The position numbers and the translations under genes were made by a program. The notes under the pieces were generated by a model. That model saw only the letters and a program-made list of their open reading frames with translations. It was not told the origin of the DNA and did no database searches. Source: a virus. Taken from it: a stretch of DNA of 46,893 nucleotides. The first letter of the stretch is position 1; each line of letters starts with the position of its first letter. The stretch is from positions 1 to 46,893 of the IMG/VR virus record IMGVR_UViG_3300025769_010854. One strand, 5' to 3'. Shown piece after piece: positions 1-28,637 of this stretch.

Positions 1-422
1 TTATTACACAAATGTTAAAAAATCCTAAAGAGATTAACTTAGGATATGGTGAGCCATACAGAAACTTTATTTACATTGATGATTTATTAGATGCATGGGA
101 AACTGTTATTACAAATCCAGAACAATGTGCTGGGGAAATATTTTGTATAGGCCCTGACAATGCAATTAAAATTAAAGATTATGTAAAACTTATTGCAAAT
201 AAAATAGGTTGGGACGGCCATGTAAATTGGAACACAAAACCACCACGCCCTGGTGAAATATTTTTACTAAACAGTACAAATCATAAAATTACAAGCAGAC
301 TAGGATGGTTTCCTAAAGTTGGTCTCAGTGAAGGCTTAGATAGAACTATTGCTGTTTGGAAAAATATTCTAGAAAACCAATTACCTTATAATCAAGACAA
401 AAGATTTTCAAAAGGCAAATAA
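1..422 (+). CDS. NAD-dependent epimerase/dehydratase, C-terminal part (5' truncated by window)
   Basis: The reading frame is open back to the window edge (codons ATT ACA CAA precede the first ATG at 12), so this is the last ~139 codons of a longer gene. The segment LGYGEPYRNFIYIDDLLDAW matches the part of extended short-chain dehydrogenases (UDP-glucose 4-epimerase / GDP-mannose 4,6-dehydratase type) that shapes the sugar-nucleotide pocket, and the end (RLGWFPKVGLSEGLDRTI) matches the usual family C-terminus. The Rossmann motif and the YxxxK catalytic pair would lie upstream and cannot be seen. Such enzymes alter nucleotide sugars for surface polysaccharide or DNA/virion glycosylation. The substrate cannot be told from this fragment. 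Confidence 0.8.
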   Translation, partial: ITQMLKNPKEINLGYGEPYRNFIYIDDLLDAWETVITNPEQCAGEIFCIGPDNAIKIKDYVKLIANKIGWDGHVNWNTKPPRPGEIFLLNSTNHKITSRLGWFPKVGLSEGLDRTIAVWKNILENQLPYNQDKRFSKGK

Positions 423-19331: not shown

Positions 19332-19366
19332 ATATGCATAGTTTAAATTAATCCGTGGGAGGAAAT

Positions 19367-20404
19367 ATGCAAAACTTTGTAAAAATTAAATCAGGAACTT
19401 ATCGTAGTTCCCCATTAAAGGATATGATCTTTCCTTTAATTAAACCAACTAGTTATGGAAAACGTGGTGCATTTGTAACTGTAGATGCAAGTGCTGTTAT
19501 GAACCCAGACTTTAAAAAAATAAGAGTTTTAATTGATAGCCCTACTGATGTAGAGCCATCATCCAAAGACGAATATGAAAGGTTAATGGGTGTTGGTAAA
19601 AAAGAAACTAAAAAACCTGAAACAACGCAACAGGCAATGGACAGAATTAAAGGTCGTTTTGAAATATTAGACAAAATGACTGATGCAGTTGCTAATGGTG
19701 TAGTTAGAGGACTTATAGTAAGTGGTCCTCCTGGAGTAGGTAAAAGTTTTGGTGTAGAAAAAATTCTAGAAGAATATGATGCAATGGCTAAACTTGGTGG
19801 AGTAACTAAAACAGAAATTGTTAAAGGGTCTATGACACCAATAGGATTATATCAAACACTTTATAATAATTCCAATAAAGGTGATATATTAGTATTTGAT
19901 GACTGCGATAGTATTTTGTTTGATGAAGTTTGTCTAAACATGCTTAAAGCAGTTTTAGATAGTGGTAAGAAAAGAACTATTAGTTGGAAGGCAGAATCAC
20001 AAGCACTTCGTAGAGAAGGTATACCTGATAGGTTTGAGTTTGCTGGTGGTGTTATTTTTATTACTAATGTTAATTTTGAGAATGTTAGAAGTAAAAAAAT
20101 ACAAGATCATTTAGCCGCTCTTATGTCAAGATGCCATTACATTGATCTTGGAATGGATTCTATAGAAGACAAGTTTTTAAGAATTAATCAAATCGTTAGA
20201 GATGGTATGCTTAAAGAATACGGATTCAGCAAAGAGTTCGAAAAAGAAATCATAAACTTTATGATTAAACATAGTGCTAGACTTAGGGAGGTTAGTTTAA
20301 GAATGGTTCTTAAAATTGCTGACTTGGCACAAATGGATTTTGACAACTGGAAAGAAATTTCAGAGTCAACTTGCATGAGAAGGATTAATATATACGAATC
20401 CTAA
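19367..20404 (+). CDS. AAA+ ATPase, conserved in marine phages
   Basis: 345 aa from ATG 19367, chosen because GGAGG lies 6 nt upstream (a GTG at 19355 would put the start before the ribosome-binding site). Walker A is GPPGVGKS (residues 120-127). Walker B is ILVFDDCDSILFDE (residues ~175-187). Sensor 1 lies in GGVIFITNVNFENV, and a sensor/arginine region in LAALMSRCHYIDLGM. The C-terminal lid is helical. Similar single-domain ATPases occur in marine T4- and T7-like phages without a known role; remodelling of replication complexes or of a host protein is possible. It has its own promoter and a hairpin/terminator cluster after it. Confidence 0.85.
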   Translation: MQNFVKIKSGTYRSSPLKDMIFPLIKPTSYGKRGAFVTVDASAVMNPDFKKIRVLIDSPTDVEPSSKDEYERLMGVGKKETKKPETTQQAMDRIKGRFEILDKMTDAVANGVVRGLIVSGPPGVGKSFGVEKILEEYDAMAKLGGVTKTEIVKGSMTPIGLYQTLYNNSNKGDILVFDDCDSILFDEVCLNMLKAVLDSGKKRTISWKAESQALRREGIPDRFEFAGGVIFITNVNFENVRSKKIQDHLAALMSRCHYIDLGMDSIEDKFLRINQIVRDGMLKEYGFSKEFEKEIINFMIKHSARLREVSLRMVLKIADLAQMDFDNWKEISESTCMRRINIYES

Positions 20405-20469: not shown

Positions 20470-20504
20470 GAATCCCCAAAGCAATTTGGGGATTCATCTT
20501 TTTT
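20470..20504 (+). terminator. Strong Rho-independent terminator before TonB receptor gene
   Basis: An 11 bp perfect stem (GAATCCCCAAA with TTTGGGGATTC) around a GCAA tetraloop is followed by a T6 run at 20499-20504. It ends the AAA+ ATPase transcript and insulates the receptor gene. Confidence 0.92.
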
Positions 20505-20514
20505 AAGAAAACAC

Positions 20515-20542
20515 TTGACTTTAAGTTTTTTCAGTATATAAT
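20515..20542 (+). promoter_or_regulatory. Sigma70-like promoter for TonB-dependent receptor
   Basis: TTGACT (20515-20520), 16 nt spacer and perfect TATAAT (20537-20542). The predicted start ~20549 leaves a ~23 nt leader with a GGAG-type site (atggagaataa) before ATG 20572. Host-type boxes suggest pre-late expression. Confidence 0.8.
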
Positions 20543-20571
20543 TAAATTTACTGACATATTATGGAGAATAA

Positions 20572-22557
20572 ATGAATAAATTCGATAAAAACTTTCACTT
20601 AAACTTCTTACCTTTATATGCTGTATTTGTTTTCATGCTGTTTATGTTATGGGCAAATGAAGTAAAAGGTGATGAAATAGAAGAAATTGTTGTGACAGCA
20701 CAACAAGAAAAAACAATTAAAGCAAACCCAATTACTAGCAGTAGTTTGATGAGTGCTATTATGCCAGTCTTTACCTGGAATGCAGGTGGCTATGGTGGCT
20801 TTGTAGGATACAATGAGCGAGGTGCTCAAACATCACATACATCAGTTTATGTGAATGGTATTCCAGCAAACGATCCAGGTGCAAGTTGGTATGACTTTGG
20901 ACATGACTTTGCTAGTGGTCAAACAGTAAAAGTTATATCTGGTGCTAACGGTGTTTTATACGGCTCAGGTAGTATGGCTGGAACCGTGCTAATACAAGAC
21001 ACTATAGAACGTGGACTAACACTTAGAGCAGAAGATGAAGTAAACTATTTTAGAATTGCTCCTGTTGATCAGTTAGAGTTTAGTATGGTTAAAGATAGCA
21101 TGGGTAGTGTTCGTAATGACAATGACGAAGAAGACAATTACGAAAACAAAACAGCAAGGTTTAATATAGATGCAGGTGACTTTACTATAGTAGGTAAGTT
21201 TACTGAATACGAATACGACTATGATAATTGTTTTAATTATGATTTTGGGCAAAGCAATGACTGTTTACAAGACGGTCAAAGATATAATGTTGCTATTAGA
21301 AATGATTACATCACAATAGGCAGAAACTATAATACAGCAGAATACTTTACTGAATTAGAACCTACATACACAAATGAAAGTTATAGAGATTATTTTAGAA
21401 TTGGTAATCAAGTAGAACTTAGTAATAGTTTGAATGTTGCATTTGGTATAGATGTAGAAAAACAATATTATAACACCAGCAGTTGGCAAAATGTTGAAGG
21501 CACAGAACTTGTAGAACGTTATAATACAATACCAGGTTCCTATACAGATGACAATTTAAGTTATAATGATGGTACTTTGTTGCCTTTATGGGACGGCACC
21601 ACAAGACCAGATTTAAATAATCCTATTGAAGTACTTGATGGAAACGGTATTTACACCTTAACACAAACTGATCTAAAGTACTCAGATGAGAATGGTGGTA
21701 TATATTTTCAAGCCAATGCTAACTTTATTTTAAATTATAACTTTGGTATTAGATTAGGCAATGATGATCAGAATGCTCTTAGACTGGGTATAGAAAAAGG
21801 AGACTTCTTTTTTAACATTGGTAACAGTTTTAGAAAAGCAAACTTATATGAAAAGTTTGGTGATGGAGTTGTACAAGGCAATGAGGAACTAGAGCCTGAA
21901 AAAGGTGTAGGTGTTGAATTAGGATATGGTGTATTAAGTGTATTCATGTATGATTTTGAAGAAGCAATAGAATATGTTCCAGGATATTATACAGATGTTA
22001 TTACAGCAACATTGGAACTTAATGATGATTTATCTGTAAATAAAGACGGCACATATGGTGGTTGTGTATTAGATCCTAATTATACAGCATCAGATGGTAT
22101 GCCATTAGGGTGTGTTTATACATTAGTAGAAGACAATAATCCAGTTTATACTATGCCTACCTATGCTAACACAGGAGAATACACCACAGCAGGTATGAGA
22201 TATGCAAATAACTTTGGTCCTCTTTTTGTAATGTTAAAATATACAGATACAGATCAAACCAGAGTACCTAAATTTGCTGGTGTATTACAGTACAGCGAAG
22301 ACTTTTTTGATGTGAACTTTAGAATAAAGTATGCATTTAATTTAGATAGAGCACCTGGACCTTATGATGTATTAGAAGAAGGACAGGAGTATTTGGAAGA
22401 CTTGAATAAGTTAAACTTGTATGTGACCAAAGAGTTTACAAATGGTTTAACAATTTCCTTTAAAGCAGAAAACATAACAGACGAAGTAGTAGAAGTTGTT
22501 CCTTTTTATAATACACAAGGTACAGAATATTACTTGACATTAGGGTATAAGTGGTAG
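20572..22557 (+). CDS. TonB-dependent outer-membrane receptor (phage-encoded)
   Basis: 661 aa. An N-terminal signal (hydrophobic FLPLYAVFVFMLFMLWA, residues ~13-29) precedes a TonB-box-like DEIEEIVVTAQQ. The plug domain shows GYGGFVGYNERGAQTSHTS, VYVNGIPANDP and VKVISGANGVLYGSGSMAGT, the canonical (V)DGxP...VExxxGxxxxLYGxGAxxG pattern. The barrel includes SFRKANLYEKFGDGVVQGNE-ELEPE, matching the FR.PNL.E......L.PE motif, and a C-terminal strand pair, SFKAENITDEVVEVV... ending LTLGYKW with an aromatic last residue, as BAM substrates need. Two Cys pairs sit in extracellular-loop-like regions. The frame is complete, so the protein could be exported and inserted. The ligand is unknown; a cobalamin/siderophore-type substrate is only a family expectation. 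Confidence 0.92.
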   Translation: MNKFDKNFHLNFLPLYAVFVFMLFMLWANEVKGDEIEEIVVTAQQEKTIKANPITSSSLMSAIMPVFTWNAGGYGGFVGYNERGAQTSHTSVYVNGIPANDPGASWYDFGHDFASGQTVKVISGANGVLYGSGSMAGTVLIQDTIERGLTLRAEDEVNYFRIAPVDQLEFSMVKDSMGSVRNDNDEEDNYENKTARFNIDAGDFTIVGKFTEYEYDYDNCFNYDFGQSNDCLQDGQRYNVAIRNDYITIGRNYNTAEYFTELEPTYTNESYRDYFRIGNQVELSNSLNVAFGIDVEKQYYNTSSWQNVEGTELVERYNTIPGSYTDDNLSYNDGTLLPLWDGTTRPDLNNPIEVLDGNGIYTLTQTDLKYSDENGGIYFQANANFILNYNFGIRLGNDDQNALRLGIEKGDFFFNIGNSFRKANLYEKFGDGVVQGNEELEPEKGVGVELGYGVLSVFMYDFEEAIEYVPGYYTDVITATLELNDDLSVNKDGTYGGCVLDPNYTASDGMPLGCVYTLVEDNNPVYTMPTYANTGEYTTAGMRYANNFGPLFVMLKYTDTDQTRVPKFAGVLQYSEDFFDVNFRIKYAFNLDRAPGPYDVLEEGQEYLEDLNKLNLYVTKEFTNGLTISFKAENITDEVVEVVPFYNTQGTEYYLTLGYKW

Positions 22558-22563
22558 TATAAT
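22534..22563 (+). promoter_or_regulatory. Sigma70-like promoter for uvsW, inside receptor 3' end
   Basis: TTGACA (22534-22539), 18 nt spacer, TATAAT (22558-22563). The -35 lies in the receptor coding region. The -10 ends 5 nt before ATG 22569, so the transcript would be leaderless or nearly so. No Shine-Dalgarno is visible. Confidence 0.7.
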
Positions 22564-22568
22564 AAGTT

Positions 22569-24026
22569 ATGGGTAAATGTGTTTTAGAAATTAGAGATGA
22601 AGTGAACGTCAGGTTCCAGGGTCTTGATGTAAAAACAAGGCGAAAGATTTCTGATGAAGTAAAATACTTTTTACCTTATGCTTATCATATGCCTGCCTAC
22701 AAATTGGGTAGATGGGACGGCTGTATTAGATATTGTGATATAGGTGGTAGAACATATTTCCATTTGCTGGATAAATTGTTGCCTATAGTTACAAATGATG
22801 GTTATGAAATAGAAGTAAAAGATCTCAGAAAAAAATGGGACTTTAGTTTTAGCGAAGTAACCAAAGACAGTTATCAACATGTTGTATGGCCTAAAGGGCA
22901 TCCTGTTGAAGGTGAGCCAATAATATTAAGAGATTACCAAGTAGACATTGTGAATAAGTTTTTAGAAAATCCACAATGCTTACAAGAAATAGCCACAGGT
23001 GCTGGTAAAACACTTGTTACCGCAGTACTTAGTGAGAAATGTCAAGAGTATGGAAGAACAATAGTTATAGTACCTAATAAAGATTTGGTTGTACAAACAG
23101 AAAAAGACTACAAAAATCTAGGATTAGATGTGGGTGTTTTATATGGAGATAGAAAAGAATATGATAAAACGCATACAATTTGTACTTGGCAAAGTCTTGC
23201 TGTATTAGAAAAGAAAACAAAAAATTATGAAGCAGACTTTCCTATAGATGAGTTTTTAGATGGTGTTGTTTGTGTTATGGTGGATGAAGTACATAAGGCA
23301 AAAGCAGAAGTATTAAAAAACTTACTGAGTGGTCCATTTAGTGGTGTCCCTATTAGATGGGGACTTACTGGAACAATACCCAAAGATGAACATGAAGCAG
23401 TTGGGTGTTTGTGTAGTTTAGGTCCTGTGGTAGGTAATTTAAGCAGTAAAGAATTACAAGATATGGGTGTACTTGCTGATTTAGATATCAGTGTTTTACA
23501 ATTACAAGATGGCATGATAGGGTTTAGTAGTTATGCTCAAGAATTAAAATGGCTTGTGACAGATCCTAAGAGAATGGATCATATAAGTGAAATTATAAAT
23601 GGATTTAGTGTTAATGGAAATACATTGGTATTAATTGACAGAATTAAAACAGGAGAAATGTTAGCAGAAAAAAATTCTGACTGGGTATTTGTTTCAGGTT
23701 CAATGAAACAACAGGACAGACAAGACAATTATGATGACGTTTCTGAAATGGATAATAAGGTCATTGTTGCTACTTATGGAGTGGCGGCAGTAGGTATCAA
23801 CATACCTAGAATATTTAATTTGATTATGTTGGAACCAGGAAAAAGTTTTGTGAGAGTAATACAGAGCATTGGCAGAGGTATTAGAAAGGCGCAAGATAAG
23901 GACTATGTGCAGGTTGTTGACCTGACTAGCAATTTAAAATATAGTAAAAGGCATTTGACGAAAAGAAAACAATTCTATAAAGAACAAAATTTTCGTCATA
24001 CCGTAACTAAGGTGGAATATAAATGA
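22569..24026 (+). CDS. uvsW: UvsW DNA/RNA helicase
   Basis: 485 aa (T4 UvsW is 503). The N-terminal substrate-binding domain has YHMPAYKLGRWDGCIRYCDI. The superfamily 2 core follows: LRDYQVDIVNKFL (Q-type), IATGAGKTLVTAVL (Walker A, residues ~142-148), VMVDEVHKAKAE (DEVH, near 239), RWGLTGTIPKDEH (motif III) and SIGRGIRKAQDKDYVQVVDL (motif VI). UvsW unwinds R-loops and branched DNA and switches T4-type phages from origin- to recombination-dependent replication. Its promoter overlaps the receptor gene end. The stop overlaps the next start (ATGA). Confidence 0.95.
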   Translation: MGKCVLEIRDEVNVRFQGLDVKTRRKISDEVKYFLPYAYHMPAYKLGRWDGCIRYCDIGGRTYFHLLDKLLPIVTNDGYEIEVKDLRKKWDFSFSEVTKDSYQHVVWPKGHPVEGEPIILRDYQVDIVNKFLENPQCLQEIATGAGKTLVTAVLSEKCQEYGRTIVIVPNKDLVVQTEKDYKNLGLDVGVLYGDRKEYDKTHTICTWQSLAVLEKKTKNYEADFPIDEFLDGVVCVMVDEVHKAKAEVLKNLLSGPFSGVPIRWGLTGTIPKDEHEAVGCLCSLGPVVGNLSSKELQDMGVLADLDISVLQLQDGMIGFSSYAQELKWLVTDPKRMDHISEIINGFSVNGNTLVLIDRIKTGEMLAEKNSDWVFVSGSMKQQDRQDNYDDVSEMDNKVIVATYGVAAVGINIPRIFNLIMLEPGKSFVRVIQSIGRGIRKAQDKDYVQVVDLTSNLKYSKRHLTKRKQFYKEQNFRHTVTKVEYK

Positions 24027-26106: not shown

Positions 26107-26402
26107 TGGAAGAACTTGTAAAATTGGTTGAGCAATGGCATGTGGATAGAAACTTAATTGACGGTGCCACTGACAAAGATCAAGTTTTAAAACTTATACA
26201 AGAGATGGGCGAGTTATCTGACAATGTGTGTAAAGGAAACGACATCAGAGATGATTTAGGAGACATGCTAGTTGTAATGATAAACATTATGAAAAGAAAT
26301 AATATTTCTATGGAAGAATGTTTACAAGTAGCATACAATGATATTAAAGACAGAAAAGGCCGTATGGTAGATGGCATTTTCGTAAAAGAAGGAGATACTT
26401 AA
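26106..26402 (+). CDS. mazG: MazG-like nucleotide pyrophosphohydrolase
   Basis: 98 aa. KLIQEMGELSDNVCKGNDIR followed by DDLGDMLVVMINI is the all-alpha NTP pyrophosphatase signature: ExxE in QEMGELSDN and ExxD-type DDLGDM for Mg2+. The length fits the single-domain MazG-like type in phages. It hydrolyses (d)NTPs or (p)ppGpp-like nucleotides. TAATG overlaps on both sides tie it into the cofactor/nucleotide cluster with the kinase fusion and metK. Confidence 0.85.
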   Translation: MEELVKLVEQWHVDRNLIDGATDKDQVLKLIQEMGELSDNVCKGNDIRDDLGDMLVVMINIMKRNNISMEECLQVAYNDIKDRKGRMVDGIFVKEGDT

Positions 26403-27511
26403 TGAGTTATCAATTTACCAGTGAAAGTGTTAGTAAAGGACATCCTGATAAAGTTGCTGATTTAATTTCAGATACTGTCGCAAACTACATTATAGATAAT
26501 AATATAAATCACAGAGCGGCTGTAGAAACACTTGTAACAACCAATATGGTTACACTTGCTGGTGAATATAAAAGTGATAAGTTTGATAAAGTCTATATTG
26601 AAAAACTTGTTAGAGCAGTAGTTAGAGATATAGGCTATGAACAAGAAGGATTCCATTGGGAAAACTTAAAAATTTATAATGAATTACATGGGCAAAGTCC
26701 TGATATAGCATTAGGTACTGACAACTTTGGTGCAGGTGACCAAGGACTTATGTTTGGATATGCATGTAACGAAACTGAAAATTACATGCCAAGTGCTATT
26801 CATTATAGTCACAGAATTCTCAGAAGGCTACAAAGTGAAAGAACAAGTAATAAAATACACTGGTTAGAACCTGACAGTAAAAGTCAAGTTACAATGAGCT
26901 ATGATGGTTTTAACAGTCCTTTAAGTATAGACAAAATTGTATGCAGTACTCAACACAAGGATAGTGTAAGTATAGAAGAAGTTAGAACTACTTTAGAAGA
27001 GATTATTAGAGATGAAATATCGGAATATGATTTAGATAAAACAGACTTTTTAATTAATCCAACTGGAAGATTTGTTATTGGTGGACCAGATGGAGATACT
27101 GGACTTACTGGACGTAAAATTATTGTTGATACTTATGGCGGGTATGCACCACATGGTGGCGGTGCCTTTAGTGGTAAAGACTGTACCAAAGTGGATAGAA
27201 GTGCGGCTTATATGGCTAGATACTTAGCAAAAAATATAGTCGCAAGTGGCAAGGCAAAGAATGCCACAGTACAATTAAGTTATGCTATTGGTGTTGTTGA
27301 ACCTACTAGTGTGTATGTTTATGCTGACGGTGAAGTAAGAACAGACTTAGCAGATAAATTACAAGAACTTGTTGACTTAACACCAAAAGGTATAATTGAT
27401 AAGTTTAATTTATTTAATTTAGATCTTACCAAGACAACAAATTATGGACATTTTGGTAAATCAGATTTACCTTATGAGAAAATGATTTGTTTTAATGTTT
27501 TCAGTATATGA
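26402..27511 (+). CDS. metK: S-adenosylmethionine synthetase MetK
   Basis: 369 aa (bacterial MetK ~384). All signature segments are present: FTSESVSKGHPDKVADLISD, NFGAGDQGLMFGYACNET (GAGDQG hexapeptide), TGRFVIGGPDGDTGLTGRKI and PHGGGAFSGKDCTKVDRSAA (the usual DPTKVDRS has Cys for Pro). It makes SAM from methionine and ATP, feeding DNA methylation or polyamine synthesis. The end, YGHFGKSDLPYEKMICFNVF-SI, diverges after the conserved PWEK-like point, where the next gene overlaps by 17 nt. The overlap with mazG leaves no room for a SAM riboswitch. Confidence 0.95.
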   Translation: MSYQFTSESVSKGHPDKVADLISDTVANYIIDNNINHRAAVETLVTTNMVTLAGEYKSDKFDKVYIEKLVRAVVRDIGYEQEGFHWENLKIYNELHGQSPDIALGTDNFGAGDQGLMFGYACNETENYMPSAIHYSHRILRRLQSERTSNKIHWLEPDSKSQVTMSYDGFNSPLSIDKIVCSTQHKDSVSIEEVRTTLEEIIRDEISEYDLDKTDFLINPTGRFVIGGPDGDTGLTGRKIIVDTYGGYAPHGGGAFSGKDCTKVDRSAAYMARYLAKNIVASGKAKNATVQLSYAIGVVEPTSVYVYADGEVRTDLADKLQELVDLTPKGIIDKFNLFNLDLTKTTNYGHFGKSDLPYEKMICFNVFSI

Positions 27512-27851: not shown

Positions 27852-28098
27852 TCATCCTGCTTATACAAGGTATCCACATTTGAAAGAAAAAGGACCAACA
27901 GATCCAGAATATACAGAATGGCAGAAATGGTTTGCTTGGAAACCTGTTAAATGTTTAGATGGTGAACGTGTTTGGCTTAAATATGTTTACAAAAGAGAAA
28001 GGACAATCAAATGGACACCACCACAATTTCCCCCTGATGCTTTTAATAGAACGGAATATAGTACCTGGGAAGGTATTTTAAATATGAGAATGAGATGA
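27766..28098 (+). CDS. Hypothetical protein overlapping the GIY-YIG gene
   Basis: 110 aa from ATG 27766 (a GTG at 27757 is in frame; the G-rich run 27754-27760 can serve as ribosome-binding site). It overlaps the GIY-YIG gene by 86 nt in another frame, unusual here. The core, YPHLKEKGPTDPEYTEWQKW followed by FAWKPVKCLDGERVWLKYVY, looks like a real conserved small domain, with many Trp/Tyr. The Gly/Lys-rich first ~28 residues may be a recent extension. Function unknown. Confidence 0.55.
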   Translation: MEKTILGGGNNRILLKSITKGKRPNTNFSHPAYTRYPHLKEKGPTDPEYTEWQKWFAWKPVKCLDGERVWLKYVYKRERTIKWTPPQFPPDAFNRTEYSTWEGILNMRMR

Positions 28099-28637
28099 TT
28101 GATATTAAAAAACATATTAGAACAGTTCCAGATTTCCCTATCAAAGGAATTCAGTTCAGGGATATTACAAGTCTTTTAGAAAATACAAAAGCATTTAACA
28201 AAACACTTATAGAGATGACAGCATATTGTATGATGTTTAATGCTAACAAAATGATAGGTATAGAAAGCAGAGGGTTTTTATTTGGGTCTCCAATTGCTAG
28301 AGATATGGAAATACCATTTTACCTGGCAAGAAAACCTGGAAAACTCCCAAATGAAACAGTGAGTAGAAGTTATGAGTTAGAGTATGGTGAAGCAGAATTA
28401 CACATACAAAAAATTTCTAAATTGACAGAATACGATAAAATTGTTATAATAGATGATCTAATAGCCACAGGTGGTACAGCTCTTGCCTGTGCTAATTTAG
28501 TAAGTGAAAAATTTTATGTACCAAAAGAAAATATAATGGTTCTTGCCGTTATTGATCTTCCTGATTTAGGAGGTTCAAAACTAATAGAGAGCTCAGGTTA
28601 CAAAGTAGAAACACTAGTAGAGTTTGAAGGAGAATAA
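28095..28637 (+). CDS. apt: Adenine phosphoribosyltransferase
   Basis: 180 aa, the normal length. It begins IRTVPDFPIKGIQFRDITSL, the Apt N-terminal signature, with GIESRGFLFGSPIARDM next and the PRPP-binding motif VIIDDLIATGGTA (residues ~116-128). It converts adenine and PRPP to AMP. The start overlaps the previous stop (ATGA). Together with MetK and MazG it suggests manipulation of adenine nucleotide and SAM-product pools in the infected cell. Confidence 0.93.
   Translation: MIDIKKHIRTVPDFPIKGIQFRDITSLLENTKAFNKTLIEMTAYCMMFNANKMIGIESRGFLFGSPIARDMEIPFYLARKPGKLPNETVSRSYELEYGEAELHIQKISKLTEYDKIVIIDDLIATGGTALACANLVSEKFYVPKENIMVLAVIDLPDLGGSKLIESSGYKVETLVEFEGE

Follow-up and report, generated by a model that had tools for sequence, protein, structure and literature searches.

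A BtuB-like TonB-dependent receptor encoded by an apparently virus-restricted gene family of jumbo phages

Introduction

Why should a phage carry, among its replication genes, a gene for a receptor of the bacterial outer membrane? The question is raised by a viral DNA sequence of 46,893 nucleotides (IMG/VR record IMGVR_UViG_3300025769_010854, the whole of which is called the window below). An initial annotation, made from the sequence alone, had recognized an intact TonB-dependent receptor (TBDR) gene in it and had left the function open between nutrient uptake, remodeling of the host surface and exclusion of competitors.

Phage-encoded TBDRs have already been annotated. A putative SusC-type TBDR of the marine megaphage Mar_Mega_1 and of LR745206 was suggested to raise uptake during infection, a suggestion that is untested (PMC9723777). 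In the pelagiphage Polarivirus skadi, a TBDR protein is annotated among the structural genes and was read as pointing to an adsorption receptor (PMC10504331). The present receptor shares with the former that it is a phage-encoded TBDR, but those are annotated as SusC (carbohydrate); it shares with the latter an annotated TBDR in a marine phage genome, but the P. skadi protein was not found as a relative here. Our search of the literature found no earlier report of this BtuB-like viral receptor family, and what is new is this BtuB-like, apparently virus-restricted variant.

Results

An intact receptor gene with a conserved TonB box and plug

The receptor ORF begins with ATG and is uninterrupted and complete over 661 codons (Table 1). 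The Pfam family Plug (PF07715) matched residues 41-138 with an E-value of 3.4e-9 and 37.6 bits, above its gathering score of 23.9, and it was matched in all 41 non-redundant members of the family. No barrel family matched the receptor in the Pfam search. With the predicted fold described below, the intact ORF and the Plug match bear out the annotated complete receptor of 661 residues.

Table 1. Features of the receptor locus and its surroundings in the window
Feature	Position	Strand	Remarks
AAA+ ATPase (phrog_1250), left flank of cargo slot	19355..20404	+	
Terminator-like hairpin AATCCCCAAA-GCAA-TTTGGGGATT and T run	20471..20504	+	downstream of AAA+ gene
Receptor sigma70-type promoter TTGACT-16-TATAAT	20515..20542	+	sequence motif
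Shine-Dalgarno GGAG	20563..20566	+	GGAG-type motif upstream of most main-site members
TBDR coding sequence	20572..22557	+	661 aa, BtuB-like, family apparently virus-restricted
Signal peptide (residues 1-34)	20572..20673	+	signal-like N-terminus, cleavage site judged by eye
TonB box region IEEIVVTAQQE (residues 36-46)	20677..20709	+	family alignment
TonB box and plug domain (residues 36-146)	20677..21009	+	111 aa ungapped in 41 members
Beta-barrel domain (residues 147-661)	21010..22554	+	ends in C-terminal Trp
Putative extracellular loop L2 (SVRNDNDEED)	21103..21141	+	alignment, AlphaFold2 model
Putative extracellular loop L3 (YDYDNC...NDC)	21208..21279	+	alignment, AlphaFold2 model
uvsW promoter TTGACA-18-TATAAT	22534..22563	+	overlaps receptor 3' end
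UvsW-like DNA helicase, right flank of cargo slot	22569..24026	+	
S-adenosylmethionine synthetase MetK	26402..27511	+	TIGR01034 440 bits, above cut-off; Pfam

The signal peptide cleavage sites of relatives, as read by eye from alignments, are of an AKA/DE type (slash, cleavage), and four members (L004, L006, L015 and L019) have another leader in place of the signal peptide. The receptor leader, MNKFDKNFH.NFSPLY, also starts several unrelated ORFs (L034:2631-2714; L035:6001-6480; L036:6001-6087; L468), namely a 159-aa putative secreted protein, two 29-aa mini-ORFs and a 239-aa frame; it is possible that the leader is an exchangeable signal cassette.

Near the mature N-terminus, a TonB box of the form IEE[IV]xVxxQQ is conserved, with E37, V41, Q44 and Q45 invariant in the 41 members, so that the annotated TonB-box-like EEIVVTA is borne out by the family. 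In the barrel, R181, D183, N184, E186 and D188 of L2 are invariant, as are D216, D218 and N219 of L3 together with the Cys pair C220/C231. Relatives vary in, or lack, the long barrel loops at about residues 303-372 and 469-530. Two Cys pairs had been proposed to form disulfides in extracellular loops; C220/C231 is the invariant first pair, but the second sits in a loop that many members lack. The remark that the barrel is short holds for the family at large (about 525-689 aa), and BtuB is short too.

AlphaFold2 with the 41-member alignment gave a model (pLDDT 79.4, pTM 0.73) with a plug followed by a long series of antiparallel strands; this alignment was used in place of one of 17 sequences, which gave a poor model (pLDDT 60). 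The top Foldseek matches of the model were TBDRs only (E about 1e-16), among them BtuB (TM-score 0.72, normalized to the target length), PirA and Cir. The prediction thus has the plug and a barrel that matches TBDRs. The strands were not counted rigorously in the model, and the 22 strands of the initial annotation are not established residue by residue.

Remote similarity to BtuB

When the family profile was searched against all PDB chains, only BtuB was found, in six chains, over nearly the full length and with a best E-value of about 1e-7; nothing else appeared up to an E-value of 10, though other TBDRs are among the chains. The similarity is remote (about 33 bits), and a profile-profile alignment to Escherichia coli BtuB covered 513 columns at 27% identity. 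Because the scores lie far below the BtuB equivalog cut-offs (26.8 versus 836 bits for TIGR01779; 17.8 versus 599.7 for PRK10641), the receptor is BtuB-like and not a BtuB ortholog by that test. Weak model matches among the 41 members were to the heme/transferrin model TIGR01786 in 28 and to the B12 model in 27, and the SusC/RagA model TIGR04056 matched no member at an E-value of 0.01. Ten proteins were tested among the best alpha- and gammaproteobacterial relatives. TIGR01779 (BtuB) was the best NCBIfam model for all ten, below its cut-off, and led the next non-BtuB family by 80-140 bits in most cases.

In BtuB, high-affinity binding of B12 depends chiefly on loops L2 to L5, and a cage of five aspartates holds calcium beside the pocket (PMC7360065). 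The profile alignment places D183-N184-D185 in L2 of the phage receptor on D193-N194-D195 of BtuB. The calcium ligands in L3 of BtuB, which we take to be Y229, D230 and D241, are not conserved as such in the phage family, where other invariant aspartates are present. Pairing YDYDNC of the phage protein with YGYDN of BtuB as a calcium site was rejected, as Y229 and D230 of BtuB lie in the following NYD. A calcium site in L2 and L3 is no more than a suggestion from the alignment.

In sum, the receptor resembles BtuB (E. coli NP_418401.1; PDB 1NQE/1NQG/1NQH) in its predicted plug-in-barrel fold, its TonB box, its length, the order of L2 and L3, and an acidic L2 with an aligned DND, and by profile BtuB is its only relative in PDB. 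It differs in the extra long loops of many members, in the Cys pair of L3 and in being a viral gene. The chances that the ligand is cobalamin or another corrinoid are about even; there are no binding or transport data.

A receptor family of mostly uncultured jumbo phages

The genes around the receptor in the window are phage genes (gp32, UvsX, UvsY, AAA+ ATPase, UvsW, terminase, tail sheath, primase and gp41). The gene order uvsX-uvsY-(cargo)-AAA-receptor-uvsW recurs on dozens of independent contigs with receptors 45-100% identical, which rules out the assembly chimera that had been named as a possible refutation. The window is collinear with contigs of 250.5 kb (G001) and 339.8 kb (G017), each with one receptor. 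For UvsX, the nearest cultured phages are the jumbo phages Phosso, SCTP-2, Atu_ph07 and their relatives (about 350-490 kb). The description as a T4-like phage therefore holds for the replication genes, but the phage itself is a jumbo phage by its UvsX relatives. The long contigs carry tRNAs, which were not traced to any host.

A single-sequence search of IMG/VR found 35 receptor loci, and profile patterns found at least 218 contigs with family members. No member was detectable at an E-value of 0.01 among the 50,697 phage records of INPHARED. The carriers are a large group of mostly uncultured jumbo phages. Of the PHROG families, phrog_5687 (unknown function, 760 positions) matched weakly (E 1e-6), and only over a short stretch of the plug. 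A SusC-type receptor of an uncultured marine phage (BFVD A0A8D9FQQ5), which may be that of Mar_Mega_1 or LR745206, is related by fold only, at 13% identity.

A close cellular source was sought and none was found: a pattern scan of 84,980 species genomes gave no relative of the receptor, and a scan with the plug alone gave cellular TBDRs at 26-48% identity and none closer. The family profile scores about 500-1000 bits inside the family; the cellular maximum was 51.5 bits in 369 gammaproteobacterial genomes and 52.6 bits in 385 alphaproteobacterial genomes. These scans were samples and depended on the patterns used, and a close but rare relative in cells may have escaped them. As far as they reach, the family is apparently restricted to viruses.

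A cargo slot that is filled, empty or decayed

The receptor occupies the slot between the AAA+ and uvsW genes at 59 loci, counted on contigs that carry both genes, with some contigs counted twice. In about 15 distinct contigs the slot is empty: the two genes are 102-116 nt apart, a gap that holds the AAA stop codon, a terminator hairpin and the uvsW promoter, and uvsW is still 79-81% identical. One slot is decayed (L353:3036-3535): the receptor is gone, but its promoter remains, as do the terminator and a start that resembles a signal peptide. This survey of the locus in related phages thus found filled, empty and decayed slots.

The receptor also has other sites. In other members of the clade it lies within the baseplate cluster, where it immediately follows a nucleosidase-like gene and runs in the opposite orientation to the baseplate genes; the copies in L057-L062 are placed between uvsY and AAA. 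An unrelated phage was at first suspected for the baseplate-site contigs (L007-L013, L021-L024), because the window and one long contig (G003) have little but the receptor in common. Longer contigs corrected this reading: transfer between unrelated phages was rejected, and those contigs are the structural region of the same clade. Adjoining the baseplate genes of G003 is an open frame of 7093 codons (L102:5142-20000 and L103:1-6423; G003:25142-46423), probably a giant fiber or adhesin.

The best explanation of these arrangements is that the receptor is a cargo ("moron"-like) gene of a jumbo-phage clade. It shows two marks of a moron: it is absent from the same slot in close relatives, and, judged by sequence motifs alone, it has a promoter and terminator of its own.

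Other cargo was seen in the same region. Judged by eye, the proteins encoded in the slot of distant phages (L284, L273) include a radical-SAM-like one and a secreted protease of subtilase-like type. Between uvsY and AAA, also a cargo position, the window has a gene for a 2OG-Fe(II) oxygenase (PF13640; 18354-18953), and relatives have different genes.

Expression signals

The annotated upstream terminator is visible as a stem-loop at 20471-20494. Relatives have GC-rich hairpins there too, which vary between them; such a hairpin is present in most of the 31 main-site members. The proposed sigma70-type promoter was likewise supported by the family, as TTGAC[A/T]-16-TATAAT, with exactly 16 nt of spacing, lies shortly upstream of the start in 30 of the 31 members. 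Members at the baseplate and uvsY-AAA sites lack this promoter, and the T4-type late motif TATAAATA was not found upstream of the receptor at the main site.

In the window, the wider class TTGACN-16..18-TATAAT has five occurrences on the coding strand and none on the other (0.09 expected per strand); in G017 the counts are 38 and 0. In the window it also precedes gp32, uvsW and the primase gene. Since the receptor shares its promoter class with these genes, it is probably transcribed together with the replication genes by an unmodified host-type polymerase; the timing is an inference. At the other end of the gene, the -35 box of the uvsW promoter falls within the last codons of the receptor (TTG ACA for Leu-Thr of YLTLxYKW) at 44 of 51 loci, and the receptor stop codon adjoins the -10 box. 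Promoters of the sigma70 type and strong Shine-Dalgarno sequences make a pseudomonadotal host likelier than one from the Bacteroidota, and we infer the former for these phages.

Purifying selection and allele replacement

Between pairs of receptors the dN/dS ratio ranged from 0.07 to 0.37, and for the plug it was mostly under 0.13, values that indicate purifying selection. Conservation was about 0.8 in the plug, L2 and L3, with L2 and L3 free of gaps, and 0.32-0.39 with many gaps in the loops 303-372 and 469-530.

The identity of receptor alleles does not follow that of the flanking genes. It correlated with that of uvsW at a Spearman coefficient of only 0.28, versus 0.77-0.86 for AAA, w24023, uvsY and uvsX, and among 79 pairs with uvsW at least 90% identical, 39 had receptors less than 70% identical. 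The neighboring gene w24530 was also partly swapped (17 of 67 pairs). By these comparisons, receptor alleles are swapped far more than neighboring genes.

Genes for S-adenosylmethionine and cobalamin chemistry

MetK is encoded 3.8 kb downstream of the receptor in the window (in PHROG, phrog_1569, of unknown function). An MTA/SAH-nucleosidase-like gene, below model cut-offs, immediately precedes the receptor at the baseplate site; in G017 such a gene is found 3.3 kb downstream. A B12-binding/radical-SAM protein, found in G017, G018 and more weakly in G001, is closest to the methylcobalamin-dependent KedN5 family, below the cut-off for that family. These three kinds of gene fit a theme of SAM, methyl groups and cobalamin. 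The viral relatives of the B12-radical-SAM protein are mostly on records without the receptor.

Similar KedN5-like, methylcobalamin-dependent radical-SAM-type proteins are encoded in jumbo phages at L384:58-1908 (-) and L385:1-1899 (-), with relatives on 129 viral contigs. The window also encodes an adenine phosphoribosyltransferase-like protein (28095-28637), a possible partner of adenine release by the nucleosidase-like genes of relatives.

A B12-dependent ribonucleotide reductase was considered as the reason for a B12 need and rejected: the phages encode a class Ia enzyme (NrdA and NrdB), so B12 is not needed for dNTP synthesis. There was no cobalamin riboswitch in 16 records and no Rfam family in the window. 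No match to TonB (PF03544) was found in the 16 records; host TonB would therefore be needed.

Discussion

We propose that the receptor is a cargo importer of BtuB type. Host-type RNA polymerase would transcribe the gene from its own promoter alongside the replication genes. Its signal peptide would direct the protein to export, and it would fold into the outer membrane of the infected cell, where it would couple to the host's TonB-ExbBD and take up a ligand in short supply. Cobalamin or another corrinoid is the likeliest, and it would sustain methionine and S-adenosylmethionine chemistry during infection. Expression at the surface, its timing, the use of host TonB, the corrinoid ligand and the link to SAM are inferred. 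We put the probability of the proposal as a whole at roughly 0.48. The molecular activity alone, TonB-driven import, is considerably safer and has good support. Active uptake is favored because the TonB box and plug are conserved under purifying selection and the profile is BtuB-like, so that the choice left open by the initial annotation is narrowed towards uptake, with exclusion and remodeling still possible.

What keeps these alive is the heavy allele swapping, which is stronger than a plain nutrient gene would predict. A phage receptor could supplant or hide the host receptor on which competing phages or bacteriocins rely, or replace one that the phage shuts down, with transport incidental. 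This is the leading rival and a serious one, if held by us at only about one chance in four for its variants together, and it could operate together with import. The replacement of alleles at a fixed locus (39 of 79 close pairs), the great differences in length of two extracellular loops and a host-type promoter suited to an early role all agree with it, yet a passive decoy would not need the TonB box and plug, which are among the most constrained parts, and it is the putative ligand loops L2 and L3 that are conserved while other loops vary. Part of the swapping may moreover be local recombination, as w24530 is swapped too. A doubtful further possibility joins both functions: the constant TonB box, plug and L2-L3 would import the corrinoid, and the variable loops, recombining between phages as whole alleles at the fixed slot, would type the cell against superinfecting related jumbo phages.

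If the protein is an importer, its ligand might instead be iron, heme or another metal chelate, taken up as by siderophore-type TBDRs for the di-iron NrdB of the phage enzyme. The presence of NrdA and NrdB, the weak TIGR01786 matches in 28 of 41 members and the rank of siderophore receptors beside BtuB by fold are compatible with this, but we think it unlikely, as the sequence profile finds BtuB alone among solved TBDRs, with no siderophore or heme receptor, and the nearest cellular relatives are BtuB-like. The location of the gene inside the baseplate cluster at the alternative site might indicate a barrel carried in particles or vesicles as a decoy or adsorption aid; there, however, it stands on the opposite strand next to a nucleosidase-like gene, and at the main site it has the promoter type of replication genes and no late motif upstream, which makes a virion or lysate component very improbable. 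That the gene was recently transduced from a host or belongs to a chimera, without phage function, is already refuted by these results: beyond TBDRs being common bacterial genes we found no support for it, and the same order on many independent contigs, the absence of a close cellular relative from the genomes scanned, the low dN/dS and the kept promoter position speak against it.

Another outer-membrane barrel carried by a phage is the Lc porin of the temperate phage PA-2; unlike the present receptor, Lc is not TonB-dependent. Viruses that alter entry across the outer membrane, and not just the cell interior, are hardly known. The import reading preferred here suggests that these phages equip infected cells with an additional nutrient port, and the natural set of filled, empty and decayed slots comes with a specific, testable ligand, cobalamin. 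If import is true, vitamin supply enters phage ecology. If exclusion is true, the family would be an unusual case of a viral TonB receptor that shuts out rivals, and if both functions are joined, one viral gene would provide its own vitamin transport as well as receptor polymorphism.
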